Shown one piece after another: positions 5,576 through 36,200 of a stretch of 36,243 nucleotides of DNA. Position 1 is the stretch's first letter, and each line of letters starts with the position of its first letter. The stretch spans positions 1 to 36,243 of the forward strand of contig AJFK01000369.1 of NCBI GenBank assembly GCA_000467715.1, in the 5' to 3' direction. A program made the position numbers and the translations under genes. The DNA comes from Hysterium pulicare CBS 123377 (lineage: Eukaryota; Ascomycota; Dothideomycetes; Hysteriales; Hysteriaceae). Under the pieces are notes generated by a model. It searched no databases, was not told where the DNA came from, and saw only the letters and a list, made by a program, of their open reading frames with translations.

Positions 5576-5580
5576 AGGCG

Positions 5581-8420: not shown

Positions 8421-9210
8421 TCAGTCCTCCAAGGTACTTGGAAGATTGTAGTGCGTCTCTAGCGCCCGAACTCGAGCGCGCAGCTTATTGAGTTCCCTCT
8501 CTTTTGCGGCGAGTCCTATCTCTAAGGTCTCCGTACGTAAAAACTCTGAGAATCTCGACAGATAATCTCGACGAGTCGTTAGCCTTCGTATTGGATAGTG
8601 GTTTCGCGGGACTTACTGGTTCTACGCCTCTTAAGACCAAGTCCTCCGCCGCCAGTTTTAGTAACACCCACGAGCCGATTCAAAGCTTCGGTTGTTATGG
8701 GCTGCTCGGAGAATTTGACCTTGTTGTCCATTTCGAAGAATTTCTGGCTGGCAGAGGTACTGGCTGTCGCGATCGTTTCGATGGTATCCCAATCCGAATT
8801 ATGTTCCGTTTCCAGAGCTCGATATGCTTCGTGAATTTCCACTATAGCAGCTTTGTGTTTTGTGAGAGTGTCTTCATTTTCGGCAGCTGGAGACATCTTA
8901 GCACTGGCACGTTGCTTATCTGGAATGCATATTCGAAAGTCCTCTTACCTTCCCTCTCACGGCCTTCTTGGCACTTTTTCAGCTCCCGTTTCAGAACATG
9001 CACCTCTTTAGCCAGACTTTTAGTGCGTTGCGTAGGTGCATTGGAGTTTTCGGTGTCCGAGGAAGTGGTATCGTCACTGTTGCTGTCGGAGGATGTGCTG
9101 AGATTGTTGTCATCGACCTCGCCGATGTTGTCGCCAGAGTCTTCGACGATGTTGTCACAGGCCTCGATGCTCTCGAGGATAGGCGCTTGGTTGCCTTCAG
9201 TTGCTTCCAT
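8421..9210 (-). CDS. coiled-coil family protein, 218 aa, three exons
   Basis: Exons are 8949-9210, 8617-8886 and 8421-8545. Both introns are phase 1 with strong signals (GTAAGA to CTCCAG, 62 bp; GTAAGT with GGCTAACG branch to CTCAG, 71 bp). The N-terminus (residues 1-60) is acidic and disordered, rich in Asp, Ser, Asn and Thr. A Lys/Glu-rich helix follows (Lys-Glu-Val-His-Val-Leu-Lys-Arg-Glu-Leu), then a middle helix and a Gly-Gly-Gly-Gly linker. The last exon is a regular coiled coil with Leu-Arg-Ala-Arg-Val-Arg-Ala-Leu-Glu, ending Ser-Thr-Leu-Glu-Asp. This end matches the end of the neighbour at 9702-10064 (Leu-Arg-Glu-Arg-Val-Arg-Ser-Ile-Glu ... Ser-Leu-Glu-Gly), which supports the last splice. 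The chosen start is the first ATG of the acidic frame. The function is unknown; a scaffold or partner-binding role is inference. Confidence 0.75.
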
Positions 9211-9227
9211 GTTGTCAGAATGTGGTA

Positions 9228-9420
9228 TGGTCGAGATTTCGTCAAGGAACGAAGATGAGTGTGGGCGAGAAATACCCCTTTCACGTTAAACAGCCGAACT
9301 TCTTCACCACGTGTTCCAACGACGTCATTTTGATGGTGGGGCAATTTTGATTCATCTATCAAGTGCATGGATGAGGTTATGGGTCAATTGGACATGTTGA
9401 GCCTGGCTTTATGTCTGGCT
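9228..9420 (-). promoter_or_regulatory. upstream block shared with the gene at 11452-12093
   Basis: About 190 bp just before the start codon is closely similar to 12120-12310, in the same position relative to the next three-domain gene. Shared words include GATGAGTGTGGGCGA, CAACGACGTCAT and TTGATGGTGGGGCA. CGACGTCA at 9320-9327 resembles a CRE/ATF half-site pair. A TATTTC box follows GGGG near 9270. Confidence 0.6.
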
Positions 9421-9424
9421 TCTA

Positions 9425-9701
9425 TATGGACTCCTGGTCACGGGCTGGAGCTCACGATAGGCTTCGCCATGTGGAAATTGTCTTCAAGAATGGGATTGCC
9501 CGAGAAGCCGATGTGCAATTACATCTACGTACTCCGTTCAGTAAACATCTAGAGTGTTTCCTTATTTCCGGCTGTATAAGCCACCAGTTCCGCCAAATCC
9601 TCCCTCAAAGCTTGTCATGCCTGCCGGAGTTCTAAAGAAGGAAATATTAGAAAGCAGGAAGCAAACAGTGCTGAGAGAGGCACTTACACCCATCGTTCAA
9701 G
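9425..9701. other. intergenic with duplicated segment and intron-like cassette
   Basis: 9420-9535 is similar to 8130-8240 (GACTCCTGGTCACGGGCTGG versus GACTCATGGTCACACTAGAG, and further on). On the minus strand, GTGTAAGTG near 9690 followed by TTTCTAATATTTCCTTCTTTAG near 9640 forms a convincing intron just after the stop of the next gene, so it may be a 3' UTR intron. Confidence 0.4.
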
Positions 9702-10064
9702 TCAACCCTCCAAGCTGTTTTCAATATTGTCCCGGGCCTCAATTGAGCGAACTCGTTCCCGAAGTTGATCGCATTCCTGAGTTTTCTCCTCAAGGGCTGT
9801 GCTCAACTTCTCTATAGCCGCCGACATCAAGTCCTCCGCAATCTTCGTTTCCTCCATGGCTCGACCGTAGAGCTTGGTGTTTTGGTGTTGAAGATCTTCG
9901 ACCCGAGTCTGCAAAACCGCCTTTTCTGCCTCGCTCTGCTTGTATTTTGCCTTCCAGTCTACCGCAGGTTGCTGGTCGGTTGGCTGGGCGGGATCTTGAA
10001 GGCGAGAGGGGCCAGAAGAAGCTGTTGCTGGCGAAAGTTGGGTGTTCGTTTGGTTTGACGACAT
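9702..10064 (-). CDS. coiled-coil family protein, 120 aa
   Basis: This is a single-exon frame. Residues 1-35 are disordered, rich in Ser, Thr, Gln and Pro. From about residue 36 (Asp-Trp-Lys-Ala-Lys-Tyr) to 115 the protein is one long amphipathic helix with heptad spacing and many Glu, Lys and Gln residues, so a dimeric coiled coil is likely. The C-terminus (Leu-Arg-Glu-Arg-Val-Arg-Ser-Ile-Glu ... Ser-Leu-Glu-Gly) is clearly related to the end of 8421-9210. The start chosen is the ATG in CACAATGTC, the context used by several neighbours; an upstream in-frame ATG would add 24 hydrophobic residues across the TATA box region. TATTTAAAGT lies at 10121-10130, 57 bp upstream of the start. No signal peptide is seen. 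Function unknown. Confidence 0.8.
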   Translation of the reverse strand: MSSNQTNTQLSPATASSGPSRLQDPAQPTDQQPAVDWKAKYKQSEAEKAVLQTRVEDLQHQNTKLYGRAMEETKIAEDLMSAAIEKLSTALEEKTQECDQLRERVRSIEARDNIENSLEG

Positions 10065-10120
10065 TGTGAGCGTGAGTAGAAAAGTGGTGGTGGAGGTAAA
10101 GGAGGGGGTGAGGCGGACGT

Positions 10121-10130
10121 ACTTTAAATA
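10121..10130 (-). promoter_or_regulatory. TATA-like box
   Basis: TATTTAAAGT on the minus strand, 57 bp before the ATG of the coiled-coil gene at 9702-10064 and directly after GGGG. Confidence 0.5.
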
Positions 10131-10550
10131 CCCCAAAGCGTCATCGGCACGCTTGCCCGGAAAAGGAAGTCTCGCAGAATGTCGGTGTGAGAACTGTCAA
10201 GCTCTCAGAATTGTACGGCAGTAGCTTGAATGGCCATTTGGGAGTAAAACTGTCTCCAATAGCTTAGAGCAGGCTACGTTGACGGGTCTAAAGTCACTTC
10301 AAGGAGGTCTGAAGAGCAAGAAAGATACGGAAGATTTATCCTTGGAGTCAAGGATGTAGTAAAACTCTCAGGCTTCCATTCTGGATTGAAGAAAGGACAT
10401 AGAGAGCCAATTCCCCTCATCAAAACTCCCATACCTGCAAAACTCCAATACAACCATGCTCTCAAGGACGGAAAAGCTGATTATCATGCTTCTCACAGCT
10501 CAATCGTTCCATGCCCCCCGACCACTCCTCCAGCTAGGCCCTATCCTCCA
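10131..10550. other. intergenic, nothing supported
   Basis: The upstream region of the gene at 9702-10064. Short frames on both strands lack coding-like codon use. Confidence 0.4.
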
Positions 10551-11050
10551 TCATGCTTCTTCTCTTTCTTCATCTTCGTCGTCGTCATCCTGTAGAAAGA
10601 GAACGTCAGTATACAGCCCTATCTAGGGTTTGGGAAAGGGATGTAAACCTACATCCTCTGCTCTACTCCACAGACAGCATCCTCTTGAGCAATTTGCTCT
10701 TCTTCCTCTACTCCCTCAAAGCCATCTCCAAATCCCTAATCCTCCTCTCCCTCCTCTTCACCTTCTTCTCCACCTTCTTTTCAACCATCAACCGCTTGAC
10801 CTTGACCTGGGCCTTCTTTATGACCCCATATCTCTCTCCAGCCGCATTGGCAGCTTTTTCAGATGCTCCATCCACAACTCGGCCAGCTCCTCGGCGTCTT
10901 CCGCCCGCTCGCGATCTCACCGTTCAGAAACTCAATTTCGGCAAGGAGCCGAACGAGGGAAGTTGGTCCATGCTCGCACGTTCACATTCTAGCTCCCAAA
11001 TTGGGCTTCGAGAGAGACTAGGGGATGCAGATGAGTGTCCTAGATCACAT
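10551..11050 (-). pseudogene. probable decayed coiled-coil gene
   Basis: The minus strand is purine-rich and reads as Glu/Lys/Leu-rich helix in different frames in turn: Trp-Glu-Leu-Glu-Cys-Glu-Arg near 10990, Leu-Leu-Ala-Glu-Ile-Glu-Phe-Leu near 10940, Ala-Glu-Asp-Ala-Glu-Glu-Leu near 10905, and Lys-Val-Glu-Lys-Lys-Val-Lys-Arg-Arg near 10770. I found no introns that join these, so small indels are the simplest reading. A good intron does exist near the end: donor GTAGGT at 10652, branch ACTGAC, acceptor CTACAG at 10590. Behind it one frame gives an acidic end starting Asp-Asp-Asp-Asp-Glu-Asp-Glu-Glu, like the acidic tails of other members. The strand bias of composition could also create helix-like frames by chance, so this is uncertain. 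Confidence 0.35.
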
Positions 11051-11451: not shown

Positions 11452-12093
11452 TCAGTCCCCAATTCCACGAGAAGGTTTAAGAGACTTCCAAGGCAACCAT
11501 CCGTCAAGCCCCCAATCCGCCGGATCCCATTCCTGCGGCATAGCTTCGAACATGGCCTTCAAAACCTCAAACTCCCGTTCCAGTATTAGGAGCCGTCGTT
11601 CAAACTCCTGCTGGCTCATGGGCTCGCTGGATTGCGGAGCACGGTTGAATGTTGAAAATTCGCCAGTATTTGGGGCATCTGAGAAGTTTGGGTGACGTTC
11701 CTCCGGCTGGGCCAACGCCTGGGAACGTGTGGAGTCCGAACGAGCTGCTTCGAGATGCCGCTCGGGTAGTCCCGACCTCATAAGTGGTACTTGAGCAGCT
11801 TGGACAGAAGAGCGCGAGACTTGTTGATTGTGGGGGGTCGATCCGGCAGTCCCATTCGGCGGGTCAATGTATACGGCTGTCGCAGAAGAGTCAACACGTT
11901 AGCTGTTTGCCGATCTAAATGCGTAGGGATCAATTATAAACATCCTATTACCTATCCTCCTTCTCCTTCGTCTCTGCCGCTCGCCTACGTTCTCCGTAGC
12001 AGGTAGTCGAGGACCTTTAGGGTCGGGCACGGCGGGTTCCTTGGAGCCGCCGTTGCTGTCGACTGCAATATTGGTGGTTTTGCTGCCAGGCAT
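11452..12093 (-). CDS. family protein with short coiled coil and Trp-rich acidic tail, 188 aa
   Basis: Exons are 11952-12093 and 11452-11876, joined by a 75-bp phase-1 intron (GTAATA, branch GCTAACG, acceptor GACAG at 11877). The frame agrees with the ATG further down in exon 2, which supports the splice. Residues 1-38 are disordered and basic at the end, with a run of six Arg near residue 41 that could act as a nuclear localisation signal. Residues 50-130 are Ser/Gln/Pro-rich. A short coil, Glu-Phe-Glu-Arg-Arg-Leu-Leu-Ile-Leu-Glu, lies at about 136-155. The tail holds Trp-Asp-Pro-Ala-Asp-Trp-Gly-Leu-Asp-Gly-Trp-Leu, an acidic-aromatic pattern typical of transcription activation segments. That role is inference. 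The upstream block is shared with 8421-9210. Confidence 0.75.
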
Positions 12094-12119
12094 TGTTGGG
12101 AGATTCGAGTTTGGAAGTC

Positions 12120-12310
12120 TTGTTGTGGAGCGAAGATGAGTGTGGGCGAAATATGCCCCCTTCACGTCACACGGCCGAGCTTCATCACAACCCCCTACTC
12201 CAACGACGTCATATTGATGGTGGGGCACGGGTGAGGGGGAATTATCATCTATCAGGTTCACGATGCAGGGCGTGGCTCAATTGGGCAAGTTGAGGCTGGA
12301 TTCAAGACTG
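12120..12310 (-). promoter_or_regulatory. duplicated upstream block with CRE-like site
   Basis: Copy of 9228-9420. CGACGTCA lies at 12204-12211. The minus strand reads GGGGGCATATTT near 12155, a possible TATA element. The minus frame through the block stays open in both copies and keeps Ala-His-Thr-His-Leu-Arg-Ser, which may be a shared upstream ORF or simple nucleotide conservation. Confidence 0.55.
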
Positions 12311-12365
12311 GCTTTCACATTCCGATCGATATTGGGACAGGCTACGGAGTGTTTTCAACATTGCT

Positions 12366-13057
12366 TCAAATCCTGTCATGATCGGCACCGCCGTACGAAA
12401 TGCCTAAGAGCTCCGTCCGCCAATGACCGCACCCGAGAAACTCTAAGAAGAGCATACTGATAAACTTGAGAACCTTGTCAGAGACAAAGAAAATGTCTGC
12501 ATCTCCTCCGACAAGTACGTACAGTAGCCGAAAGATTTGTTGATAAAAGAATGCCGTTGTCAGGAATTGGAATGTGTGTGCATGTAGAATGATATCTTGT
12601 ACGGGCGCCGATAAGTTGGAGAGATCGAATGTGGCGACGTTGCAAAAGGCTGCTGCCAATGTCAGTCGTTGTCATGTCAGACACAATATGCATAACACGT
12701 ACCTGCCAGCGACATTGTCCTGCCAACCCATGCGCTTCTACAACCCCATACGCCGATACAAGAGGTTATACCTCTCCTCGATTTCTGTGCTGCTTCCAGG
12801 GCGCTTTTTTGGTCAACTTGAGCCGTCTCCGGGGTGGATTCAGCTGCTTCGTCGCGTTTTGGAGAATCGAAAAGTTGGTCGAGTGCAGACGCTTTGTCGA
12901 TCTCCGAAGCTTTGGAGGGTTCGGAGGCCATGTCAGGCGGCGAGGCTTCCTTGGTTTGAAGGTCTTTTGTTCCGGCGGCAGGAACGGATGGTCGGGTGAC
13001 GAAGCGAAGAGATGCTGGTATAGTCGTGTTTGCACGAACCGGTATCTTGGAAGACAT
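12366..13057 (-). CDS. family member, N-terminal exon secure, 3' end uncertain
   Basis: The ATG at 13057 sits in CAATGTC context and TATAAAC lies about 60 bp upstream. Residues 1-85 are disordered, rich in Ser, Pro, Glu and Lys, with Asp-Gln-Leu-Phe-Asp-Ser-Pro near residue 56, typical of the family. After Ala-Leu-Glu-Ala-Ala-Gln-Lys the model is unclear. One reading uses donor GTACGT at 12702 and acceptor GGCAG at 12653 (50 bp, phase 1, branch GACTGAC), joining exon 12703-13057 to 12366-12652, 213 aa. That second exon is hydrophobic and Phe-rich, unlike other members. Alternatively the A6 run at about 12805 marks a frameshift, because another frame then gives a better helix (Glu-Glu-Arg-Tyr-Asn-Leu-Leu-Tyr). 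The same intron end is duplicated near 13550-13610. I trust the N-terminal exon only. Confidence 0.45.
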
Positions 13058-13884: not shown

Positions 13885-14586
13885 TTAGGAAGAGGCGTTG
13901 CTGTCGTGGACCGGAGGCTTCCTTGGCTTAGCACTACCGTCATCCACGCCCAAACTATCGAAGCCGAAGCTTCGAAGAGCGTAGGCATTGAAGTCGTTGT
14001 CATCAGGGCTGGTTTCGGAACGAGCGTCTGCCTTTGCGGTCTCCTGATCTGTACGCAGTGGTTGCTTGTCGCCCGCCCCCTGAATTTGGCCTATTTGCAC
14101 TTCGTTAGATGTGCACCTCCTGTTTCCTTCCTGTTCGGACACGATCATGACTTACCAGTACGGAAAGAGGGTTGTGCCTCGGGCCGGCTGATTTCGGTCT
14201 CCGCTCCGGTTGTCGTGGCTTTGTTGCTGGCAGCCGCTTCTTCAAGGCTGTTTGATTTGTTAGTCGTGCTTCATGATTGGATTAGATATAACATACCGTC
14301 GAATTTTCGCACTCTGGTCCTCAGCTTGCTTCTTGGCGGCAAGGAGACTCTTTTGAAATATCGCCTCGCGGGCTTCAAGTAGGTAGATGCGGGTCTTGGA
14401 CTCCTGTAGTTCGTTTTCTGCAGTATGCGCACGGGCGAGAAGTAGGCTGTTCTCGTTACGAAGTCCATTGACGATGCCGCGATGAAATGCCAATCCTACA
14501 GTGGGACCGGTATCATCACCAGCTGTCGAGGAGGTGTTGCTGGGGACGGTATTGAATTGGTTGGGGTTGCCGCTATTGTTATCCAT
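13885..14586 (-). CDS. coiled-coil family protein with acidic-aromatic tail, 195 aa, three exons
   Basis: Exons are 14297-14586, 14156-14247 and 13885-14090. Intron 1 is phase 2 (GTATGT, branch GACTAAC, 49 bp) and intron 2 is phase 1 (GTAAGT, branch TCTAACG, 65 bp), the same phases as in 20123-21034. The N-terminus (1-30) is Asn/Ser/Thr-rich. A coiled coil runs from about 35 to 100, with Leu-Leu-Leu-Ala-Arg-Ala-His-Thr-Ala-Glu-Asn-Glu-Leu and Ile-Tyr-Leu-Leu-Glu-Ala-Arg. A polar linker follows. The tail contains Asp-Asp-Asn-Asp-Phe-Asn-Ala-Tyr-Ala-Leu and Phe-Gly-Phe-Asp-Ser-Leu-Gly-Val-Asp-Asp. The tail is similar to that of the adjacent gene at 15153-16103. The promoter element at 14683-14701 is shared with 17599-18249. 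Function unknown; transcription-related partner binding is inference. Confidence 0.85.
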
Positions 14587-15152: not shown

Positions 15153-16103
15153 TCAGAGATGAAAGTTGGTATAGTTGAGCTGAGGGGCCATCGTCTGAAT
15201 GGCATCACCAAGAAACACACGGCTGATAGTAGCTAGATCGGCTTCATCGACACCAAAGCCGCCCAGATCCAATCCGTCCTGCTCAAAGTCATACAGTCCG
15301 TAGGCATCAATCTCACTAGCTTCGTGGCCGATATCGTTGGTGTCATCCTTGCACTCTCCCATACCATCTCCACCACGGTTCATGGACTCGTTCTCTCCGA
15401 CGATATGTACGTTCTCTGTTCGGATATTGTTAGCACTCGCTTTATCCAGGCATGTTGACCTCGAACCAAATAGCGACTTACCGCCAACAAGATCGCGTGG
15501 GCTTTCCACAAGGCCACCACCTCCTGGGAGTGCGATGGTTGGATCTACCTGAAGGTCTGTAGAAGATTGAAAGAATTGAGAGACTGTCGACCAAGGGATC
15601 TGCAATGCCCGTAGCAGGTCAATGATCGGGAAAGCGACCTGAACTGAATAGAGGGCTCCTAAGTCGAACAGGTCTGGGTTGGCGTTGACTTGTAAGACTT
15701 CTAAGCCGTTGTTTCCAGCGTGCGCAGTTCCAGAGAGAATGTTTCCGTAAGCTGGATTGTATTTCAATTCCATGCGCGATTCTTCATCAGAATCGAAATA
15801 TCCGTCGCAACGGACGCGCATGTTCGCGGAAGGACAATGGACCGTTGGGGCTTGTGGGTCAAAAGCGCTCGTCGCCGGAGGAAGGGCATCTGTCAGTCCT
15901 TGGTTGAAGGAGTTGGAATGGTCCGGCAAATATGCATCCCACCCCATATCGCTTAGTTCTGCCTGACTTCTGTCCTGCCGTGTCCAGTTCCAAGGGAGCT
16001 TGGAAAGAAATGCAGGCGGTCGACGTTCGAAAGGATGGTCATTGTATGAATTGAAGTTGGCTTCGTTGCCAGAAGATGCGGCTTGCTCCTCCTGATAGTC
16101 CAT
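15153..16103 (-). CDS. acidic-tailed family-related protein, 294 aa spliced
   Basis: This is the longest gene here. The frame is open from 16103 to 15153 (316 codons), but it contains a near-perfect intron at 15416-15481: GTAAGT, branch GTGCTAAC, acceptor GAACAG, 66 bp, phase 1. Because it is 66 bp and has no in-frame stop, both spliced (294 aa) and retained (316 aa) forms are translatable. The N-terminal 150 residues are disordered and rich in Asn, Asp, Ser and Pro, with Met-Gly-Trp-Asp-Ala-Tyr-Leu near 53. The middle has a hydrophobic stretch near 165-185. The tail has Ile-Asp-Ala-Tyr-Gly-Leu-Tyr-Asp-Phe and Leu-Gly-Gly-Phe-Gly-Val-Asp-Glu-Ala-Asp-Leu, related to the tail of 13885-14586. 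No coiled coil is obvious. It resembles an activation-domain-like protein, but no DNA-binding domain is visible. Confidence 0.75.
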   Translation of the reverse strand: MDYQEEQAASSGNEANFNSYNDHPFERRPPAFLSKLPWNWTRQDRSQAELSDMGWDAYLPDHSNSFNQGLTDALPPATSAFDPQAPTVHCPSANMRVRCDGYFDSDEESRMELKYNPAYGNILSGTAHAGNNGLEVLQVNANPDLFDLGALYSVQVAFPIIDLLRALQIPWSTVSQFFQSSTDLQVDPTIALPGGGGLVESPRDLVGGKSLFGSRSTCLDKASANNIRTENVHIVGENESMNRGGDGMGECKDDTNDIGHEASEIDAYGLYDFEQDGLDLGGFGVDEADLATISRVFLGDAIQTMAPQLNYTNFHL

Positions 16104-17598: not shown

Positions 17599-18249
17599 TT
17601 ACCGTCCACGGAGTTGCCGAAAAAGGTTCCGCCAAATAGATCCTGATCGACGATTGTTCGTATCCATCATGGCGCCGGCCGGCTCAGTGATGGTATTGCT
17701 ATCGGAATTGATCTCATTCTGCCTCTCATCAGAGTTGCCGAAGAGGCCGGACGTAGTGTTGGCCTCAACGTTACCCAAAGATGTCGTCGAGGCAGTAAGC
17801 TGCGCGCGTGGATTCTCGTAGGGGGTGTTCTTCTCGTAAATAACGACGGGTCCGTCATTCGTCATTGTCGTTTTCAAGGACCAAGATGACTTTGGAATGG
17901 CTGAATCAGCTTCATTCGGCTCGGTTTTGAGACTATGCAAGAACGTTAGCCAAGTTGAGATGAAGGTCTGCGCTGCGCGGCAGACGTACTCCCGTAACTC
18001 TGCTTCTAACAGAGTAACTCGCTGCGTAGCAGCTACAAGAGCATTGTTGCTCTCGAGATCTTTGATCCGTCGTTGCAGGCCATGAATCACTTCGCTTTGA
18101 TACATGATGACCTCTCTGTAATCCCCCGGAGACATCGAATCAGGTAGAATGATGCCGGTGAGGCCATCGTTAAGGTGGTGCCGAATTGAATTCTGTGAGT
18201 TGTCTTGTGAGGAAACACGAGGGGTAGAACTGCTGTTGATGTCCGCCAT
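17599..18249 (-). CDS. coiled-coil family protein, 197 aa, paralogue of 20123-21034
   Basis: Exons are 17990-18249 and 17599-17932. The intron (17933-17989) has GTACGT, branch GGCTAACG and acceptor CATAG, is phase 2, 57 bp, and has no in-frame stop, so retention keeps the frame open (216 aa). Residues 1-45 are disordered. The coiled coil at about 50-86 includes Leu-Gln-Arg-Arg-Ile-Lys-Asp-Leu-Glu-Ser and Leu-Leu-Glu-Ala-Glu-Leu-Arg. This matches the paralogue's Arg-Val-Arg-Glu-Leu-Glu-Ala-Glu-Leu-Arg with the same intron position. After the intron both have a related linker with Thr-Asn-Asp and Pro-Tyr or Thr-Tyr. The paralogue's acidic tail is mostly missing here; only Leu-Phe-Gly-Asn-Ser-Asp-Glu remains, and the protein ends basic (Phe-Arg-Gln-Leu-Arg-Gly-Arg). 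I chose the second ATG to match the paralogue. Confidence 0.85.
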   Translation of the reverse strand: MADINSSSTPRVSSQDNSQNSIRHHLNDGLTGIILPDSMSPGDYREVIMYQSEVIHGLQRRIKDLESNNALVAATQRVTLLEAELREYVCRAAQTFISTWLTFLHSLKTEPNEADSAIPKSSWSLKTTMTNDGPVVIYEKNTPYENPRAQLTASTTSLGNVEANTTSGLFGNSDERQNEINSDSNTITEPAGAMMDTNNRRSGSIWRNLFRQLRGR

Positions 18250-20122: not shown

Positions 20123-21034
20123 TCATAAGAAGCTTCTAGTATCATCAAAGACGAAGTCGTCGGAAGAACCTCCCCCCAGTGGCGCCCCATCAAAGGCGTT
20201 ACCGACGAAAGCGTTGCCGTCTAACGTGCTGGCATCACACAGGGGATTGTTGAGGTCTGATCTGCCGAATACAGAATTGTCGTACATAGCTTGATCGAAA
20301 GCGCTCTCGTCAAACATGGGGGCTTCCAGCACTGGGTCGAAGCTACCGTTTCCGAAGAGGTCGACACCGGTATCAGTATAGTCGGTATTCATATTGAGGT
20401 CCATGGTGGCGTTGTGTATGCTAGGCTGCGGGATGTCATCTGTATTCCTCAGTCAGGCAGAGTTCATGATCTAACTTAAATCCTTGAAAATCAACGGCTT
20501 ACTGAAGTTGTACGGTGGCGGGCCCCAGATTCTCCTGCCAAGGTGTGGCAACGGTGTCGTTAGGGAATCTACGGGCATCCATTCCTCTGGGTCATCGACG
20601 TCGGGTTGCCCATGGACATAAGTCATGGAGTTGTCGCGGACGATAATATAATTGTCATTTGTGTTTGTGCCCAACACGGGTTGCTTTCCCAGAGCAACTA
20701 GAGACTTGGGTTCATTGAGGAGTCCTTTTGCCCTGTCGAAGAGAATTAGCTCAGCTATTGGAGGTTCACATCGCCTCGTAACGTACGCCCTGAGCTCTGC
20801 TTCCAACTCCCTGACACGCTGGTTCACCGCGAGAAGAGCCCTACCCGATTCGAGTTCGGTTATACGTGCGCGGAGTTCAATAATCTCCTCCTGCTGCCGG
20901 TCGATGATTTGTTGATGGTGCACGCAGGACGCTGAGGGGGGTTGTATGGTGTTTCTGGGGACTGAGCTTTGGATGGAGAGATTTTCTTCTTGTAGGGTGT
21001 TGTGGGAACCAGGATTGTAATACTCGTTGGCCAT
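20123..21034 (-). CDS. coiled-coil protein with acidic-aromatic C-terminal domain, 264 aa, three exons
   Basis: Exons are 20787-21034, 20503-20732 and 20123-20439. Intron 1 is phase 2 (GTACGT, 54 bp, no in-frame stop) and intron 2 is phase 1 (GTAAGC, branch CTGACTGA, acceptor TACAG, 63 bp). Frames agree across both. Residues 1-35 are disordered (Asn/Ser/Gln). A coiled coil runs from about 40 to 83 with Ile-Ile-Glu-Leu-Arg-Ala-Arg-Ile-Thr-Glu-Leu-Glu-Ser. The linker (84-160) includes Asp-Val-Asp-Asp-Pro-Glu-Glu-Trp. Exon 3 gives about 105 residues full of Asp, Asn, Phe and Gly in repeated patterns: Asp-Leu-Phe-Gly-Asn-Gly-Ser-Phe-Asp, Met-Phe-Asp-Glu-Ser-Ala-Phe-Asp, Asp-Asp-Phe-Val-Phe-Asp-Asp. 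It looks like an acidic activation domain, with no DNA-binding domain in the same protein. Closest relative here is 17599-18249. Confidence 0.85.
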
Positions 21035-21812: not shown

Positions 21813-22336
21813 TTAGTGGAATATTGAGGGAGATGTACGTTGGAGATGTATATACCGTTCAATTTCACAAGCGAGATACTCGCATGTGTTATCCAGATTT
21901 TTGTTCGCATTCTGGGACTCCGCAAAAGCGTTCTGGTAGACGGCGAGGTGTGTTCTCGTACTGTGGTGAATGCATTAACTTGGGGTTTATTGTGAGAATG
22001 AACCTGTATTTTCAATACATACTCCTTGTTGTGGACCTCCAAGAATTCCACATAGCGCCGGATGGACTTGCCATCATCTTGAGATTGCTTGATCTGAAGC
22101 GCTGAAGCATCCAGTCGGGTCTTCAGATCTTTTAGTTGGCGGTTGAGATCAACCTCCTGGGCAGCGTTTTGCTCCTTCAGTTTTCCGGCTTCTTCTTCCT
22201 TTGCTTTGACTTGAAGCTTGAGCTTCGAGTTCTCAGCTTCGAGTTTCGCCACTACCGATTGTGCGCCCAGGTTTGGCTTCTTGCGAGGGTATCGGCCATG
22301 TTTCTTCTGAATGCGGTGTCCAGATGGAGGTGCCAT
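21813..22336 (-). CDS. long coiled-coil family protein, 153 aa, two exons
   Basis: Exons are 22023-22336 and 21813-21960. The intron is 62 bp, phase 2, GTATGT donor, CACCACAG acceptor. The N-terminus is short and basic (Lys-Lys-His-Gly-Arg-Tyr-Pro-Arg-Lys-Lys), which could be a nuclear localisation signal. From residue 25 to about 138 the protein is almost all amphipathic helix: Leu-Glu-Ala-Glu-Asn-Ser-Lys-Leu-Lys-Leu, then Lys-Glu-Glu-Glu-Ala-Gly-Lys-Leu, and after the intron Leu-Ala-Val-Tyr-Gln-Asn-Ala-Phe-Ala-Glu. Reading through the intron gives 175 codons but destroys the heptads, so splicing is favoured. There is no acidic tail; the end is polar (Thr-Ser-Pro-Ser-Ile-Phe-His). Self-association is likely. 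Confidence 0.85.
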
Positions 22337-23244: not shown

Positions 23245-23551
23245 TCAGAGACCTTCGAGCAAACTGTAAAGACTTTCAGCGCTTTGTACTTGTGGCTCCA
23301 AGTTATTCGTGCTTACTCATTGAGTAACTTCTTGAAGTAGTTTCTATTTTTCCGTCGCTGCTCAGACCTGGCTTCAGAATTGGCCAACTTTGCCGTCAAC
23401 TATGAATATGTTAGTAATTTTGCATGAGAGGCTTTAGCTTCAGCCTCATACTTACTTCGGCGATCTGGTTGTCCTTCGCGGAACAACCACGGCAATGCAC
23501 CTCAATCGGGGACGGAGGACGAACATTCGTGCGAGCGGCTGGAGTTGACAT
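23245..23551 (-). CDS. minimal coiled-coil family member, 65 aa, three exons
   Basis: Exons are 23456-23551, 23317-23399 and 23245-23263 (19 bp). Intron 1 is phase 0 (GTAAGT, branch TACTAAC, acceptor TCATAG, 56 bp). Intron 2 is phase 2 (GTAAGC, acceptor TTTACAG, 53 bp), in the family position after the coil. The start, Met-Ser-Thr-Pro-Ala-Ala-Arg, follows the usual style, with TATTTAAAC at 23664-23672. A Cys-Arg-Gly-Cys pair lies at about 20-23, close to the Cys-Pro-Asn-Cys pair of 25599-26035. The helix runs through Leu-Thr-Ala-Lys-Leu-Ala-Asn-Ser-Glu-Ala to Phe-Lys-Lys-Leu-Leu-Asn and ends Leu-Leu-Glu-Gly-Leu. It is too short and too spliced to be seen as a simple ORF. The last exon is the least certain part. 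Confidence 0.65.
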
Positions 23552-24368: not shown

Positions 24369-24419
24369 CCTCAAGGACCGTTACATGTTGGTTATACCTT
24401 ACTGGAGAATCCAATGGTG

Positions 24420-24745
24420 TCGGTGGATGGGGCTAGCGTGGACGGAAATCCTGTTACAGCGCTCACAGCGTAAGGTTCATGGCTGTTGCGCGATGATGTG
24501 GCTAACGTGGAGGGACAGGTCGGATTTGCAAACGTTCAACTTGACGGAAATACGGTGATGCTGTACACGGGCGTTGTGGATGGTTATTGGAGTTGATTAT
24601 TGAGGGAACCAGAAAGGGACTATAGATATCTATATCCTTCTATGAATGCAGCAAGAGTCTACCGCAAGTTCCATCGCGTCGTCGAGTTCGTTCGTGCTGC
24701 ACTGAACGATTGAAGCTCCAGGGTGCGCACACAGTGGACCATGAG
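24420..24745 (+). repeat. dispersed repeat copy A
   Basis: Copy A of a segment also found at 30785-31130 (copy C) and, for its right half, 26415-26565 (copy B). Shared words include AGATATCT and TGCTGCACTGAACGAT followed by GAA-CTCCAG-G-GCGC. The left half keeps GTAAGGTTCAT, GGCTAACGT and a terminal AG, a plausible 49-bp intron, which is also kept in copy C as GTAAGATTCAT and CAGCTAACGT. Confidence 0.65.
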
Positions 24746-25598: not shown

Positions 25599-26035
25599 CT
25601 AGAGTTGTTTGCCGAGGTGGGCGATAGGGCCACCGTCGGCCTCGATTTGCTTTTGCTCGTATTCGTTGAGGCGCTTACGGAGTGCCGCTTTCTCTTCCTC
25701 CAGCCTGAAGCAAGGCTCATTAGCAAATCTCCTTTCTTGAGATCTCATGAAAAAGGATTAACATACTTCTTGATTTGCCGATCTCGGTCTTTGATGTCAT
25801 CCCTCGCGGCGTCTAAGTCCTCCTGGATCCGTTCAGACTTCAGCCGGTACGTCTTGGAGTCCTTTTGCTCCTGTTCTAAGATATGGTTGTTTTGCGAAAG
25901 GTCATTTTCCAGGACACTGATCTGCCTCTTCAAGTTTTCGTTTTCGGCGGCGATGGGGGCACAGTTTGGACAGGTTCGTTGCACCGCAGGCGCAAGTGGA
26001 CGACGAGGAATGCGGCTGGTTGGATGAAGTGACAT
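25599..26035 (-). CDS. coiled-coil family protein, 124 aa, two exons
   Basis: Exons are 25767-26035 and 25599-25704, with a 62-bp phase-2 intron (GTATGT, branch TGCTAATG, acceptor TTCAG). The N-terminus is short and basic (Ser-Arg-Ile-Pro-Arg-Arg-Pro) followed by Cys-Pro-Asn-Cys at about 23-26. The coiled coil covers about 30-112, with Glu-Asn-Leu-Lys-Arg-Gln-Ile-Ser-Val-Leu-Glu before the intron and Leu-Glu-Glu-Glu-Lys-Ala-Ala-Leu-Arg-Lys-Arg-Leu after it. The second exon's Glu-Lys-Ala-Ala-Leu resembles Glu-Lys-Ala-Ile-Leu of 32503-32853 and Glu-Lys-Ala-Val-Leu of 9702-10064. The stop at 25599 follows Gly-Lys-Gln-Leu. No acidic tail. The 156-codon frame on the opposite strand is a shadow. 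The chosen ATG starts the basic segment; an upstream ATG adds 60 residues with poorer codon use. Confidence 0.85.
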
Positions 26036-26890
26036 GATTCGCTCTTGGTAGTGGTAGTCAGGAAGGTTCTTTGATATGAGCTGTATGACAAGGTTCTTGT
26101 CACCGAAGGGCTGCTTTGTCGGGAGTTCTTTCGAGGATGTAAATGGTGAGGATTTGGGTAGTCGGGCGGGCGCGTTGGAAAGGCGGAGCACCAGGCGGTC
26201 ACGTGCTTTTAGCATTCATAGCTAGGTCCAAACGCCCTCTTTAACCTCGGAGGGCCATAGAAGACGTTGCTGAGTAAGTTAAATGCCAAGATTCTAGAAT
26301 GAAAGCTCATGTAAGGAAATAGCTTAAGCATAATGCTTTTGAGTGCCTAGGATTGATAACAAGCTGAGAAAGCTGCATCGGAGAGGCATAGTTGATTAAG
26401 ATTGTTTGATGTGTCTAAAAGAGCTTAAAGATATCTGAGTCCTCCTCATCTTGCATCAAGCGATGACCTTGCTTTGTATCACATCTCCAAGAACGATTGT
26501 GCTGCACTGAACGATGAAACCTCCAGAGGGCGCCCAAAGTAGACCAACGAGGTATCAGCAATATGATTCCTGGTTCCACATTGAAACACTGATAACATCC
26601 ATGAGAGCATGCTGACTACTGTAATGATACCTATCGCAGAATGCAAAAGGCTAAGATTAGGGATACTAAAGCAGTCTATGTTATAGCCACCTCCTAAACA
26701 GCGTCGCAGCCATCTGTCCCACTAATATACTGAAGCGGCGGTGACCTCTCATCTCTCCCTGTCCCACAGGGCAAGCCGTCTACTCATTACTCGTCTACCA
26801 CTTGATCTACTCCATACCATACCTCAGTTAGCCAAGGAAACTGAGTTGTGCTTAGGGCAATCTGTCCTGGAAATTAGGCTTCACAAGCTC
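26036..26890. other. intergenic
   Basis: Apart from dispersed repeat copy B, I see nothing supported here. Confidence 0.4.
26415..26565 (+). repeat. dispersed repeat copy B (right half only)
   Basis: Matches copies A and C from AAAGATATCTGAG through TGCTGCACTGAACGAT and CCTCCAGAGGGCGCCCA. The left half with the intron-like signals is missing. Confidence 0.65.
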
Positions 26891-28863: not shown

Positions 28864-29904
28864 CTAGTTCTTGCAGCCTGGTCGTTGGTCATACTTTCCA
28901 CTGGCCATTGAGATTTTTGCGTTGGGGTGTCTGTGACTAAGACTGACTTTGTGGACGGCTTCCCTCTCTGCCTCAATCCTATAAATGGATATTAGCCTTA
29001 CTTCAAGAAAGGCATATAAATACGTAGTATTCTTACCGAGCAGTTTCCTTCTTCGATCTGGCATTGTCCTCATGGTGAAGGTACAATGACCGCTGGTAGC
29101 ATACTCGTTCTGCGAAGACTACGGATGAACTGAATTCAGCAAGCGAATTCTGTTGATCATAAAGTGTCCATATAGCACAAGTATGTTACCTTATCTGCCA
29201 GTGAGTTTCTTCACAAGAGTCGTGGGAGATCCAGCGACCTCAAGAGACATCTTCTGAGGGGAAGGGGGAAGAGAAGCAGCATCGTGCAGGGTCGTCTCAT
29301 TGTCCTTCACAGCAGGCCCCGTGAGCTCAGTAACGCTGTCTACAGTAGTCTTTCTGGCCGGACTGGCAGCCAAAGCTGTCTGTGCTTCCATGCTGCCTTT
29401 CTCAGAGTGCTTGAGGAGACTTTCGTCAACATTCCACAGCCGTCCTTGCGATCCAATCTGGTCTTGGCTTTGTTGCGTTGTTGAACGGTAGGGTGCCTTC
29501 AGGGGATAGGTTGTTCGCCGTCGCTTGATCTTGGGCGAGTAGGACTGCCAGCATGTGAGTATTTGGACTTGCCATAGATTCGGCGGGAGGTATGGATTAA
29601 GGAGGATGGGAGTGGGTGTGAGTTACCGGACCTCACTCACAATTGGGATTGGGTTGTAGATGTCCGTATTCGAGCGATTCAGGTCGATGCGGCAGTTGCA
29701 GATGTGGCCGATGCGCCTAGGCTGAGGGAAGTACTCTTCGTCGGGGTCTCTAAAACAGCACCCGAATGTGCTTTTGAAGAGGCGGCAAGGCTGACAGCCT
29801 GAAAGTGCAGGATTACTCGCTCGCCGTAGGCATCCTCTGTAAAATTCTCGTTTCTGAGGATATTGGTGATAATTACGGAAAAAGATTTCTTTTGGTGTGC
29901 GTTG
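28864..29904 (-). CDS. multi-exon gene with basic, Cys-containing N-part and C-terminal coil; 5' end missing
   Basis: Four exons agree in frame: 29641-29904, 29215-29544, 29037-29149 and 28864-28978. Introns are phase 0 (GTGAGT, 96 bp), phase 0 (GTGAAG, 65 bp, weak donor) and phase 2 (GTAAGA, branch GGCTAATA, 58 bp). Exon 1 has Cys-Gln-Pro-Cys, Cys-Cys and Cys-Asn-Cys, then Asp-Ile-Tyr-Asn-Pro-Ile-Pro-Ile. Exon 2 is basic and Ser/Thr/Gln-rich (Lys-Ile-Lys-Arg-Arg-Arg-Thr-Thr). Exons 3-4 form a coil (Lys-Lys-Glu-Thr-Ala-Arg-Ile-Glu-Ala-Glu-Arg-Glu-Ala-Val). If the weak second donor is not used, exon 2 ends at a stop at 29191 and the coil is a separate gene. No start codon is found; CATAG at about 29905 looks like another acceptor. 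The Cys pattern might bind metal, which is speculative. Confidence 0.45.
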
Positions 29905-30471: not shown

Positions 30472-30784
30472 CTATTGCTCAAGCGTCAACGGTTACACGT
30501 ACGAGACCTACCTCAAGAAGCCTAGGCAGGATGTCGGTAGAAGATGGATTTGTGCAAGATCTAAAAGAAAGGTACCGCGGGTCCAGCCTACCACGACCAG
30601 CCATTCAGAGCCTGAGCCTCGCATTTTTTGCTTCGGTTTGAATTCTACAAGACGGAGTTCTCCTGGGTTGGACGTTTACAGCATGTCCGAACTCGACCGC
30701 GCATGCATAGTAGGCGGGTGACAGCTGCATGCACGCGGCAGCCACTACTAGGGACGACACATCAGACGGCTGGAAACTATGGGG

Positions 30785-31130
30785 AAGGTGGATGAGACTG
30801 ACATGGAGGAAGGCACTTTTGCAACGCTCATAACGTAAGATTCATACAATTTGCGCAAGGTCACAGCTAACGTCAACGAAGAGTCTCAAACACCTTTGCA
30901 TTCGATTCATAGAAAATTGGAGGAGTCTAGATCTTGGGCTGAAGAGGTTCTTGGATTCTATTGCTGCAGAGACTGGAAAGAGACTGTAGATATCTGGGTC
31001 CTTCCTTCCGTACCTTGAACAACTGCCGTAGTTTCTTGGGCATCGCCGAGCCCAATCATGCTACAGTGAACAATTGAACCTCTGAAGAGCGCCCGGAGCT
31101 GGCGAAAAGAGTGCCGCAAGTGTTTTTCAT
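30785..31130 (+). repeat. dispersed repeat copy C
   Basis: Similar to 24420-24745 over its whole length and to 26415-26565 over its right half. A minus-strand frame at 30958-31158 (66 codons) lies in it and is probably a by-product. Confidence 0.65.
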
Positions 31131-31397: not shown

Positions 31398-31833
31398 TCA
31401 CAAGCTCATGTCGAACATAGTATCATCATCGTCGGGTGGATTTCCTTGTGGTTCTCGATCATGCTCGACTCTAGTCATGTCCATTAGTCGCGTTCCCAAA
31501 CTTGAGGAGATCAAGGAATTACCTTGCTAGCTCTTCTTCGAGGTGTTGCCTGTAAGCCCTTTCCATTCTTAACATATCTGTCAAAAGGGTAATTTGATTC
31601 TGTAAGGTGCGAATTTGGTCACCGGCATTGGTGATCTCTTCGTGTATTTCGGGGCCCGGTCGTCCTGGTGCAACGAGGGTTGGAGATACTGAAGCAGAGT
31701 TGGTCGGCTCGGCGGAGTCCATTGGTGGATCGGAGTTGGCTGGCGTATCGGAATTGGATTGAGACATTGAGTTTGGATCTGGCTGGGATTCTGTTGACGA
31801 CTCCGGCTTCTTAGAAGTCTCATTGGTCGACAT
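31398..31833 (-). CDS. coiled-coil family protein with acidic tail, 127 aa, two exons
   Basis: Exons are 31523-31833 and 31398-31470, with a 52-bp phase-2 intron (GTAATT, acceptor GACTAG). The start, Met-Ser-Thr-Asn-Glu-Thr-Ser-Lys-Lys, lies in CAATGTC context, and CTATTTAAGT at 31901-31910 is a TATA-like box. Residues 1-60 are Ser/Pro/Asn-rich and disordered. The coil at about 65-103 includes Ile-Arg-Thr-Leu-Gln-Asn-Gln-Ile-Thr-Leu-Leu and Leu-Glu-Glu-Glu-Leu-Ala. The second exon is short and ends Asp-Asp-Asp-Asp-Thr-Met-Phe-Asp-Met-Ser-Leu, a compact acidic-hydrophobic tail. A good GTGAGT donor overlaps the stop region at about 31402, so an isoform with a further exon is possible. Reading through the first intron stops at once after Leu-Ala-Arg. 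Confidence 0.8.
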
Positions 31834-32502: not shown

Positions 32503-32853
32503 TCAGTGCTTGAAGTGGAGAGTGCCGCTATGCTTATATGAGTTGTAGTGTGGTACTAGACTCAGGCCCGCATTTGCCTCGGAGTTGTTTGCCTTGTTCT
32601 CCGCCCGGGCGCTGTGATGCGTATTAGAAAGGTCAGTGAGAGACATGGGACAGTGATCATACTCGTCCAGTTGTTTCTTTAGGATAGCTTTTTCAGCCTG
32701 AATACAGCTGACCCGGATTTTCTCCGATTCGACAGCAGCCTCGGCCCATTTGAGATCAACTTCCAAGATTTTGACTCTCTCGGTTGATGGACCTTTGTGA
32801 GAAGTAGGTCTGAGCTCCGGAGCCGAAAGAGCTCTTCTGATTGGCTGTGACAT
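32503..32853 (-). CDS. coiled-coil family protein, 116 aa or 99 aa if spliced
   Basis: The whole frame is open from ATG 32853 (CAATGTC context) to TGA 32503. Inside it lies a candidate intron at 32612-32662: GTATGA donor in phase 2, CTGAC and TCTAATAC branch signals, ATCACAG acceptor, 51 bp, no in-frame stop. Splicing removes 17 residues. The donor phase fits the family. However, the unspliced Leu-Asp-Glu-Tyr-Asp resembles Leu-Asn-Glu-Tyr-Glu in exon 2 of 25599-26035, which argues that this part is coding. Both forms may be made. Residues 1-25 are disordered (Arg-Pro-Thr-Ser-His-Lys-Gly). The coil covers about 27-66 with Val-Lys-Ile-Leu-Glu-Val-Asp-Leu-Lys and Glu-Lys-Ala-Ile-Leu-Lys-Lys-Gln-Leu. 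The tail is polar and His-rich. A GTTTAAAT box lies at about 32968. Confidence 0.75.
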   Translation of the reverse strand: MSQPIRRALSAPELRPTSHKGPSTERVKILEVDLKWAEAAVESEKIRVSCIQAEKAILKKQLDEYDHCPMSLTDLSNTHHSARAENKANNSEANAGLSLVPHYNSYKHSGTLHFKH

Positions 32854-32949: not shown

Positions 32950-33857
32950 TGTTAGCAAAGAAAGAGTGTTTAAATGCTTCTGCCTCGTGGCCTTTCTTTT
33001 GCCTAGCCGGAATATATCCGCTCTGCGGTCATGCGTTGCGGCATTTGGCGAAAGAACACAAATTGAGCTGTTCCTCCTGGCGTGACTCCTTGGAAAGTGT
33101 GAATGACTTTGCCCTGCAAAAACTCTTGATAAACCTCTTGAATCCTCCTTCCTCTTTGGGTGCATGGCTTTCCCACCGTACTTTCATGCCTATGAGGCAG
33201 TTTTAGACCGTGAAACAGTCATTCAAATCGCACCTTAAATCCGAGTCATACCACCTGCTTTTGATAGAGCATGAAGGTCAAGGTGTTAGAAGACGGTGAT
33301 TAGCGCCGATTAGAGGTAACAAATTGATAGGGTACCCAAAGCATTTACTCTTGGTGAGAAAAAGCAGCTTGGTGTCAAATAAAAGACTAAGTCTACTGAT
33401 CTACTGGGAGTCACGTACCGTTACCCTGGAGTAGTTTGACTTGCAAATTGGAAGCGGAAAGAAGAGATCTGCCTGCCAATTGACGTTCCATGAAGAACCG
33501 TAGGATTGACCATTTTATGTATGAATTTTACCGGTGATAGAGAGCATATTTGAAAGTGGCTAAGAGAGAAACCTCTTTGGAAACAGAATTGTATTAGGCT
33601 TGAAAGGCCTAAACGTTCCGGAGGTGATCTGTCAATGCCGGAGAGTAGTTACCATGATAACTGATTAATGCCCCAAACACGTGAACCCCACCAAAATTGC
33701 ATCCATGTGCATGCGAGTGCTTTGATATATTTGAACCGTAGCATTTCCGATCAGAAATACCCTATTGTCATTGAAAGAGAGATGTGAAACTGTCCTTACG
33801 CTGGTTAGCCTACAGCCGTAACCAACTTAAAACCACAGGCCTACCTTTTCGCAATAT
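32950..33857. other. intergenic, nothing supported
   Basis: Contains the TATTTAAA-like box near 32968 of the gene at 32503-32853, and otherwise AT-rich DNA without coding-like frames. Confidence 0.4.
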
Positions 33858-34379
33858 TCAACGAGAATTTCTTAGGGTCATGCGCATGATGGTGTTTTTG
33901 GCTCTAAATTAGTGGATATTAGCAAATCGCTTTTCTTATGACTGTCGCTGATTAGGATGTACACACTCTTTAATCTCTTTGAGAAGCATATCATTCTTCG
34001 CCTTCTCCATGAAGAGTTGATGCTCCGCTGCATCCCCTCGGGCTTTCTGCGCGGCTAATTCTCGCCCAACCTCCTCGTCACGAGCGACTCGATTGTCCAG
34101 TGCTTCTTGCAGTTCGTCGGCCCGGGCTTCAGCGTCCTCGTACAATTGCCCGACGTGATTGTAGCTGTCGTCATAAGCAACTAATTGGCTGTTGAGATGT
34201 TCATTCTCGCGACGTTCAGCTTCGAGCAAGGCCTCATGATCACAGCAAGGTTGAGGAGGCTGTACCTGTGCCTGAGCACCAGAGGGCGATTCTTGTTGGG
34301 ACTGGGTGTCCGCATCCTGGGTGTCCGCGTCAGGAGGTTGATTGTGTGTATGAGATGGTGGGTGAGAATTGTTATCCAT
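33858..34379 (-). CDS. coiled-coil family protein, 152 aa, two exons
   Basis: Exons are 33967-34379 and 33858-33903. The 63-bp phase-2 intron has a GTGTGT donor (weaker than its relatives), a TGCTAATA branch and a TTTAG acceptor. Reading through adds only eight residues before TAA. The start, Met-Asp-Asn-Asn-Ser-His-Pro, resembles the start of 13885-14586 (Met-Asp-Asn-Asn-Ser-Gly-Asn). Residues 1-48 are His/Gln/Asp/Pro-rich and disordered, followed by Cys-Cys-Asp-His. A long coil runs from about 50 to 138 with Leu-Glu-Ala-Glu-Arg-Arg-Glu-Asn-Glu-His-Leu and Asp-Glu-Leu-Gln-Glu-Ala-Leu-Asp-Asn. The short last exon is basic (Arg-Met-Thr-Leu-Arg-Asn-Ser-Arg), not acidic. The chosen ATG drops 45 upstream residues that cross an AATATTTAG box. 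Confidence 0.8.
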
Positions 34380-34710
34380 GATTGATAGTTGAGAGGCGAT
34401 GACTAAATATTCGGAGGTATGAAGGAGTAAGGATTGATTTGTGCTGCAGATTAAACAGAGGGACGAGTATGTGTGCAACGGTGAGTCCGTATCGGTGCTA
34501 GCCGAATTAATCACGTGAACTGCCCCGTGATAGGTATCCTTCCACTGGTGAAGCTCAGATGTAGATTCTCTTCCTAACTTACGGCGCCATTTTTGGCATT
34601 ACCAGTTCAAGATCTTATTTATTTGGGCAATTCTTATAGACATAATTACGATTTTCAGTACCCCTATCCTCGTCCGCAGCTGATTTGCCTGATACTAATC
34701 TTTCCTAATA

Positions 34711-34850
34711 GATCTCCAAACCGTCAGGATCTAACCTTCATCGAAGAAGCAATCAGTCGCCAGCCCCACGGGCAAGTCGAAGACACCGGCACTATTTGTT
34801 CAGGTCCCATTAAACGTATCGGGAAAAGAGGTGAAATGCAGTTGGCCTGA
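34711..34850 (+). CDS. possible last exon of a plus-strand gene
   Basis: After TACTAATCTTTCCTAATAG, a good branch and acceptor ending at about 34710, one frame has coding-like codons to TGA at 34850 (Leu-Thr-Phe-Ile-Glu-Glu-Ala-Ile-Ser-Arg; Ile-Lys-Arg-Ile-Gly-Lys-Arg). The upstream exon is not identified; GTATCC near 34532 is a possible donor. Confidence 0.35.
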
Positions 34851-35458
34851 TCTATTTGAGAATGAAAGTTTGAAAGTACAGCATTCACAATCAGAAATAT
34901 AGATCCTGCCCTCATCCCGTCCATTACGCGGCGACGACCTATCTTTCAAGGGTGTCCCTCAGCTCGATCGTATCCTGCACACAGCGGCGACCTCTCTTTC
35001 TGGATTGTATAGAAAGTCAATCTAAATGCGTTCACCGCTAAGAACTCCGACGACTATGCTCTCAAAATGAGGCTCCATGTTTTTATCTTTTCCCTAATTC
35101 TAAGTCTCTATTCTTACATATAAGACTCTAGCCTAGAAAAAGCGAACTAAGCTCTAAATATTAAGGATTTTTGGTATTCAAGACCTCTTCAAGGCGGATA
35201 TCAGAATGACGGAAAGCAGCTTTCCCATATCAATCATCAAATATCAACCTTCGTACGTCTTAGGGTGCAGAGATTAGTCTAGCACTGGATACGGCAGCCT
35301 CATCCCATGATCCCGCCTTCCACAGCGTCTCGAAGGCTCCTGAACATGTTTCTGAAGCTTAAAAGAGGACTAAAACACAGAGTTTAATAAGGCATGCTCT
35401 AGAGCTAACAAGGCTAGACAGATCGAAGAGCTAAACAACAGGGTTTCAGTCGTGTTGT
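34851..35458. other. intergenic, one coil-like frame at the right end
   Basis: A plus frame at about 35365-35550 reads Ala-Arg-Gln-Ile-Glu-Glu-Leu-Asn-Asn-Arg-Val, a coil-like stretch, before a Ser-rich part. It may belong to the gene remains at 35459-35784. No other feature seen. Confidence 0.3.
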
Positions 35459-35784
35459 TTGTCTACCAATCATCCACCAGACACCTCCGCTCCCGCTCCT
35501 CGTGCTCCACTCTCACGGCCGGAACCTCCATCCATCATGCGGCGCAAAGGTAGAACGTACACTGTCAACGGCGGCAACATACCAAGAAAGCCTTCTGTCA
35601 AACCGTTATGGACGGTATGTTCAATCCGGATACTTCTGTGGAACTCCCTTTAAATAGGATGAAAGATGCAGAAAAGCAGATGTATTCAACGGACTTGCAA
35701 TTCAACTACCTAACCCCCCTCGGAGTCGGTATCATTTCCTCCTTCCATGATCACCTTTGCCATCAATTCCACATGCCCGTTTAA
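35459..35784 (+). pseudogene. plus-strand gene remains, possible lost start codon
   Basis: At 35459 the plus strand reads TTG-TCT-ACC-AAT, parallel to the ATG-TCG-ACC-AAT start of 31398-31833. It continues with coding-like codons (Pro-Asp-Thr-Ser-Ala-Pro-Ala-Pro) to a GTATGT donor at about 35617. A second frame, open from about 35558 to TAA 35784, has very good codon use (Val-Met-Asp-Gly-Met-Phe-Asn-Pro-Asp-Thr; Met-Lys-Asp-Ala-Glu-Lys-Gln-Met). The two overlap and I found no intron that joins them. Either the first is an exon with an alternative start, or the locus is broken. Confidence 0.35.
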
Positions 35785-35868
35785 TCGCCTCGATGACCAC
35801 ACTGGCCGTTGGAATTCCCTCCATGCCACGTACTGCATCAGCATACCCTCATGAAAACCCACCCTGTC

Positions 35869-36200
35869 CTATCCTTCCCATCTCTCAAAGTTCCGGACTT
35901 GGTGCACGGCTTTCGGGGACGTGCCCAACATGACTAGAACTATCAATCATCCGGTGATCTAGATTTCTTGGAGGGTTTACATACAGGTCGTAGAGATCTT
36001 GCCAATATTGAGCCGCGTTTTGTGCCTCCCGGAGCTGGCGTTCGAGCTATATCCGATTATCAACATTCTAGCCTATCGGCAGTCATAAAGCGCAGCAGAA
36101 TAGAATGTACACTTAAACGGGGCTACTCACATCGTTGAACTTGGCCTCCCGCTCCGTGCACTTGTTGCAGCTTAGCTGGAGCTGGATATGGGCAGAGTTG
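35869..36200 (-). CDS. coiled-coil family member, 5' part beyond the window
   Basis: Exon 36131-36200 is joined by an 84-bp phase-0 intron (GTGAGT to GATATAG) to exon 35985-36046. Its end is a phase-2 GTATGT donor, the family hallmark. The coil reads Cys-Asn-Lys-Cys-Thr-Glu-Arg-Glu-Ala-Lys, then Leu-Glu-Arg-Gln-Leu-Arg-Glu-Ala-Gln-Asn-Ala-Ala. The Cys-x-x-Cys just before the coil recurs in 25599-26035 and 23245-23551. After the intron there are two acceptors: GATAG gives an end at 35869 (Val-Arg-Asn-Phe-Glu-Arg-Trp-Glu-Gly) and TTCTAG gives an end at 35883 (Ser-Arg-Ala-Pro-Ser-Pro-Glu-Leu). The acceptor TTGATTGTTAG at 36201 shows a further upstream exon off the window. Confidence 0.65.

Follow-up and report, generated by a model that had tools for sequence, protein, structure and literature searches.

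A one-strand array of small predicted coiled-coil genes in Hysterium pulicare, probably a tandemly duplicated family

Contig C288 of the Hysterium pulicare CBS 123377 assembly (AJFK01000369.1), analysed here over its entire 36,243 bases and referred to as the window, carries an array of small genes on its minus strand. One protein, a RICTOR/pianissimo homologue encoded on contig C100, was used for placement; among at least 120 relatives, the nearest with a species name is from Lophium mytilinum (82%, with 85% for an unnamed sequence) and further Pleosporomycetidae come next, in keeping with a dothideomycete. Fourteen genes on the minus strand of the window (lettered a to o, skipping l; Table 1) were modelled with a simple ad hoc intron and splice score, and 12 of them, lying between 8421 and 34379, are predicted to encode a polar N-terminus and a short coiled coil. 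In COILS predictions, P21 is ≥0.94 in 12 of the 14 genes (with a scored on its full model), above the value of 0.9 taken to mark the family, and no coil is predicted for d and f. The coil of gene c has a P21 of 0.96 but a P28 of only 0.02. For each of the 11 coil proteins other than a, between 0 and 4 of 100 shuffles of the same residues match the observed score. The preliminary description of this DNA had proposed at least eleven minus-strand genes with one plan, extending to 36200; the cluster and its coils are borne out, the full plan with a phase-2 intron is confined to eight genes, and the end was set too far, because scans of open reading frames (ORFs) and of stop-to-stop coils in the window revealed no coil gene beyond 34379.

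Table 1. Modelled genes of the array and the similar blocks upstream of genes a and c (lengths in amino acids, aa).
Feature	Positions (strand)	Exons	Length	Remarks
Gene a	8421..9210 (-)	9210-8949, 8886-8617, 8545-8421	218 aa	N-terminus acidic; coil within last exon (COILS P28 0.98, full model); both introns phase 1
Upstream block of gene a	9246..9421 (-)			75% identical to upstream block of c, 189 aligned columns
Gene b	9702..10064 (-)	one exon	120 aa	no intron in reading frame
Gene c	11452..12093 (-)	12093-11952, 11876-11452	188 aa	phase-1 intron precedes short coil
Upstream block of gene c	12127..12314 (-)			duplicate of the upstream block of a
ORF d	12677..13057 (-)			gene-like, inside array, without predicted coil
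Gene e	13885..14586 (-)	14586-14297, 14247-14156, 14090-13885	195 aa	phase-2 first intron inside coil
Gene f	15153..16103 (-)		294 aa	length after a 66-bp intron; acidic-hydrophobic; without predicted coil; neighbour of array genes
Gene g	17599..18249 (-)	18249-17990, 17932-17599	197 aa	phase-2 intron; closest relative of h
Gene h	20123..21034 (-)	21034-20787, 20732-20503, 20439-20123	264 aa	phase-2 first intron
Gene i	21813..22336 (-)	22336-22023, 21960-21813	153 aa	N-terminus basic; long coil; phase-2 intron
Gene j	23313..23551 (-)	23551-23456, 23399-23313	60 aa	coil holds phase-0 intron; CxxC before coil
Gene k	25599..26035 (-)	26035-25767, 25704-25599	124 aa	phase-2 intron; CxxC before coil
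Gene m	31398..31833 (-)	31833-31523, 31470-31398	127 aa	phase-2 intron, score 3.3; tail DDDDTMFDMSL
Gene n	32503..32853 (-)	32853-32663, 32611-32503	99 aa	phase-2 intron, score 5.8
Gene o	33858..34379 (-)	34379-33967, 33903-33858	152 aa	phase-2 intron, donor GTGTGT, score 6.0

The window is dense in coils when set against eight control contigs of the same genome (C134, C334, C100, C287, C289, C20, C250 and C400). ORFs starting with ATG and reaching P28 >0.5 number 8 in the window versus 9 in 181,682 control bases; all of those in the window lie on the minus strand and are shorter than 190 aa, and three of the nine control ORFs are shorter than 200 aa. Stop-to-stop stretches with P28 >0.9 give a count of 9 in the window (all minus, 8 within the span of the array) and 5 in 181,948 control bases. 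C134 and C334 were picked for weak coil matches, so the control count is raised, and the other controls were chosen by number. The preliminary description had also called for structure prediction of each coil, and helices were obtained in both cases modelled with AlphaFold2: gene b has low confidence over residues 1-28, no helix before residue 37 and a single helix at 37-119, and exon 1 of h has a helix at 36-81. Two further minus-strand stretches may be decayed members, a 47-residue open stretch outside the array at 3627-3734 (P28 0.96) and a basic segment at 10700-10870, heptad-like by eye, that ends in LEMALRE and a stop.

The N-termini of the members are polar in residue make-up, and no signal peptide is apparent by eye in any of them, no prediction program having been used. 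Plant-associated fungi often carry fast-evolving, clustered orphan genes, a description that would suit secreted or host-acting effectors, but as the N-termini are polar and by eye resemble no signal peptide, such a role for the array is extremely improbable.

A phase-2 first intron is predicted in eight genes (e, g, h, i, k, m, n and o), either within the coil or at its end. Nine introns were compared and, in line with the earlier expectation that this intron is mostly phase 2, eight are in that phase by prediction, with the phase-0 intron of j as the exception. The donor GTAYGT, which had been called usual, and the (Arg/Lys)-x-Tyr-Val that was said to recur on unspliced reading are less widespread, occurring in 5/9 introns and 5/8 phase-2 genes, respectively. 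When the eight genes are aligned on the intron, isoleucine or leucine stands at position -2 in seven and leucine at -6 in six, with valine or isoleucine at -9 in four and leucine or valine at -16 in seven, forming a 4-3 heptad pattern; of 20,000 draws with random shifts, 5 reached 7/8 in a column of the last heptad. In the best COILS register (segments of 14, 21 and 28 residues), the residue before the split codon falls at heptad position b in all eight genes. With the cut allowed at any of the 29 codons that start with an observed base pair and do not lie beyond the real one, the chance of a single register letter in all eight is 2.4e-6 (1.7e-5 without h), in the five genes with strong splice signals (e, g, h, i and k) 6.7e-4, and in e, g, i and k alone 0.0036, odds that are optimistic because the register was seen before testing and the splice signals in m, n and o are weaker. 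The claim that architecture is conserved where primary sequence is barely so stands for eight genes and fails for eleven. Because intron phase and heptad register coincide, these eight genes appear to descend by duplication.

Outside this set, the intron of j follows heptad position c, one base past the common site, which would fit a small shift, though as a single case, and the introns of gene a, at position d, are off the common site. On a second contig, C590, the coil of the ORF z26212 ends at a phase-2 GTAAGT donor, which is paired with only a weak acceptor and is placed after position c, one codon past the common site. The intron of j (gene at 23551-23313) and the donor of z26212 are possible shifted versions of the common intron.

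Direct sequence links between members were sought in 253 pairs, and the 72 scoring ≥38 were set against 200 shuffles that preserve regional make-up and heptad class, with z scores given for the best 30 of these 72. Three pairs exceed all 200 shuffles: g with h (z 10.6), the last exon of a with the end of b (z 6.2) and b with z26212 (z 5.4). Three more were reached by one shuffle in 200, namely e-k (z 4.6), in whose alignment the introns of both genes stand at the same place, z28888-z30383, both from C590 (z 3.6), and h-j (z 3.0); these are insecure because 72 tests were made. The upstream blocks of a and c are similar at z 43, with the similarity ending ~35 bp before the ATG, and a genome search with the block matched only these two places, while e and g have 62 bases in common upstream (z 10). 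Compared over their first 250 coding bases, a and c do not rank among the ten most similar pairs, which suggests that upstream DNA outlasted coding DNA at these two genes. The earlier statement that the genes arose by duplication rather than chance therefore finds support for the eight phase-2 genes and for some pairs, because g-h and a-b beat all shuffles and a/c and e/g have upstream DNA in common; genes a, b, c and j depart from the plan.

An allorecognition or spore-killer-like selfish locus, in which conflict drives the divergence of copies, could produce orphan, clustered and fast-diverging genes of this kind and could leave a and c more similar upstream than at the beginning of their coding regions. 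The codon pattern of the closest pair points the other way: over 92 aligned codons, g and h are identical at 53/57/35% of first/second/third positions, and as third positions are the least identical, the protein letters appear constrained, with no excess of amino-acid change. No known killer, HET or NLR domain is present in the 13 window proteins scanned either, in that no Pfam family reached its cut-off, and a conflict locus is judged improbable.

It is also conceivable that unrelated or newly born small genes gained coils and introns independently in a gene-poor stretch, heptads being easily made. Conservation of the primary sequence is slight, most pairs lie within the heptad-preserving shuffles, and searches with h and with an alignment of b and z26212 found no homologues, all as such an origin would predict; nonetheless, eight introns of identical phase and register on a single strand, the shared upstream blocks and the g-h and a-b similarities argue for common descent and make independent origin unlikely.

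Searches of the 37.2-Mb genome (596 contigs) with six of the 14 genes (h, k, f, e, o and b) returned, beyond the queries themselves, g for h and a set of weak matches: on C334 for h, on C134 for k, and on C131, C590 and C249 for b. At 26.2-32.2 kb, C590 has seven small to medium ORFs on one strand, at 26212, 27125, 27875, 28888, 29698, 30383 and 31190 (z26212 and so on). Six of the seven have P28 ≥0.94, the one at 29698 has P21 0.89, and by eye their starts are polar or of low complexity. They are preceded by a frame resembling a short-chain dehydrogenase and followed by a gene of 1,115 aa. In sequence terms this appears to be an array of the same kind as that in the window, perhaps of the same family, which may extend to C590. 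Genome searches with z30383 gave just a weak, stop-bearing match on C300 and those with z28888 gave none. The protein of the 1,115-aa gene (L043 1617-4961; C590:33715-37062) has a BAG-like match of 22.1 bits versus a Pfam cut-off of 23.4 bits.

The view that no named family has this plan was upheld by profile and protein searches. None of 13 window proteins reached a Pfam cut-off (a was omitted, c was represented by its second-exon ORF and m by its first exon only), nor did any of the five C590 coil proteins scanned of the seven. Against a protein database that holds many dothideomycetes, h gave 749 candidates with none at E 0.01, and the alignment of b with z26212 gave 252 with none at E 10; h, b and z26212 alone were used as array queries. 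Literature searches turned up no such family of clustered coiled-coil genes.

The nearest likeness in Pfam is to the bZIP transcription factors (PF00170), in which, as in the array genes, a polar region is followed by short leucine-zipper-like heptads. Gene b matches this family at E 0.03, in a match confined to zipper positions 26-59, and the members might on that basis be bZIP remnants whose basic region has been lost and which serve today as dominant-negative zipper partners; a weak match of z26212 (E 1.16) also falls, at C82:25287, in an ORF that reads by eye as an ordinary bZIP. The hallmark of bZIP proteins is a basic region that contains N-x7-R and immediately precedes the zipper, and, unlike in those proteins, no basic DNA-binding region is visible by eye in the 12 coil genes. 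The b match scores 14.9 bits versus a cut-off of 27.6, and b is the sole PF00170 match among the matches listed for the 13 proteins, none being found for the other 12 (one listing held the best 25 of 27 families), so that a bZIP ancestry is very improbable. The 5 kb surrounding the C82 ORF were considered as a further array and carry none.

The reading of the locus that we consider probable is a lineage-specific, tandemly duplicated family of small intracellular coiled-coil oligomerisation proteins. An ancestor with a polar N-terminus, an intron-split coil and a variable C-terminus would have been copied repeatedly in tandem on one strand, after which the coding letters drifted while the heptad frame and the intron were retained. 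The helices would pair in parallel to form homo- and hetero-oligomers inside the cell, and divergence at the coil edges would give each copy its own partner preference. The variable ends would carry the output, being acidic-hydrophobic in h (its C-terminal tail) and f and, by eye, having basic stretches in i and c; this output would most likely be tethering or gene regulation in the nucleus, a role that we favour over secretion, as a guess, because of these same tracts. Membership in the family is argued for d, f and j from position and strand or from hints, and for c from its shared upstream DNA; d and f are putative members.

Several findings count against this interpretation. Only a handful of the 72 shuffled pairs (of 253) stand out, and chance could yield e-k and h-j. 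Genes a (two phase-1 introns), b (no intron in frame), c (phase 1, before the coil) and j (phase 0) do not have the phase-2 intron, the intron signals of m, n and o are weaker (scores of 3.3, 5.8 and 6.0), and the register was noticed first and then tested on the same eight genes. For the extension to C590, the match of gene b there is weak (E 0.08) and is outscored by one to a long coil ORF on C131 (E 0.045), and a reverse genome search with z26212 placed gene b second best at E 0.63, so that the link is suggestive only; in the other six of the seven C590 genes no phase-2 donor with a scored acceptor was found. Composition is the whole of the case for a nuclear or regulatory role.

Two possible family traits were tried and set aside. 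An activation-domain rule found strict tiles in f, h and o, and an activation-domain tract was dropped as a family trait since the best tile of o sits in the coil itself. Charge pairs in the common register favour self over mixed pairing (mean 2.0 vs 0.25; p 0.04, or 0.07 without h), too weak a preference to be put forward as a claim, though it hints that copies may be insulated from one another. A broader proposal, which we regard as doubtful, is that at least two arrays (C288 and C590) are nurseries of coil specificity, where the heptad frame, an intron locked to that frame and the promoter are all that is inherited, the coding letters are almost fully replaced, and duplication yields insulated oligomerisation modules.

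Were the array a duplicated family of this kind, homology that is nearly invisible in sequence would still be readable from intron phase and heptad register, offering a route to tracing orphan families that profile searches miss. Some of the orphan genes of this fungus would then have diverged beyond recognition and would not be new from scratch, and the array would provide a natural set of paralogous coiled coils in which to study how pairing specificity splits after duplication.

Fungi have lineage-specific tandem multigene families that form one-strand clusters, diverge fast and lack a named domain, all of which applies to the array; unlike in those families, what the array conserves is heptad register and intron position, and not cysteines or a catalytic core. 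A ciliate parallel is found in the 90-bp-exon leucine-rich-repeat (LRR) expansions of Tetrahymena, young tandem genes with an extreme phase-2 bias that, according to the authors of the study, suggests clonal origin (PMC6564038). The array resembles these expansions in its tandem genes with phase-2 intron bias and differs from them in that the ciliate LRR genes consist of arrays of 90-bp exons (PMC6564038), whereas the fungal genes have one intron per coil and unrepeated exons.

The window also holds a number of repeats. Between the array genes, a repeat some hundreds of bases long is present in partial copies at 24414-24741, 26499-26546 and 30779-31004, and two copies of another sequence that are 70% identical (8134-8239 and 9426-9533) flank gene a as a possible trace of tandem duplication. 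In the left part of the window, stretches at 2626-2772, 3146-3227, 3359-3493, 3651-3689, 5088-5170 and 5385-5677 have 73-88% identity to C493, C250, C300, C338, C505 and C264 and, as judged from these matches, are dispersed repeats in a gene-poor region. C493 was considered as the site of a further array, and the 6 kb examined there contain no coil ORF. Degenerate tandem repeats with a period of ~168-178 bases occupy 6479-7620. Finally, small palindromes around CCAATGG occur at 1545-4534 with stems that change on both sides (GTCCCAATGGGAC, GACCCAATGGGTC, GCACCAATGGTG); 12 were found versus 0.18 expected in single-base shuffles (most 2), with none in 8000-36000, and they may form hairpins in RNA or DNA or else encode a degenerate protein repeat.

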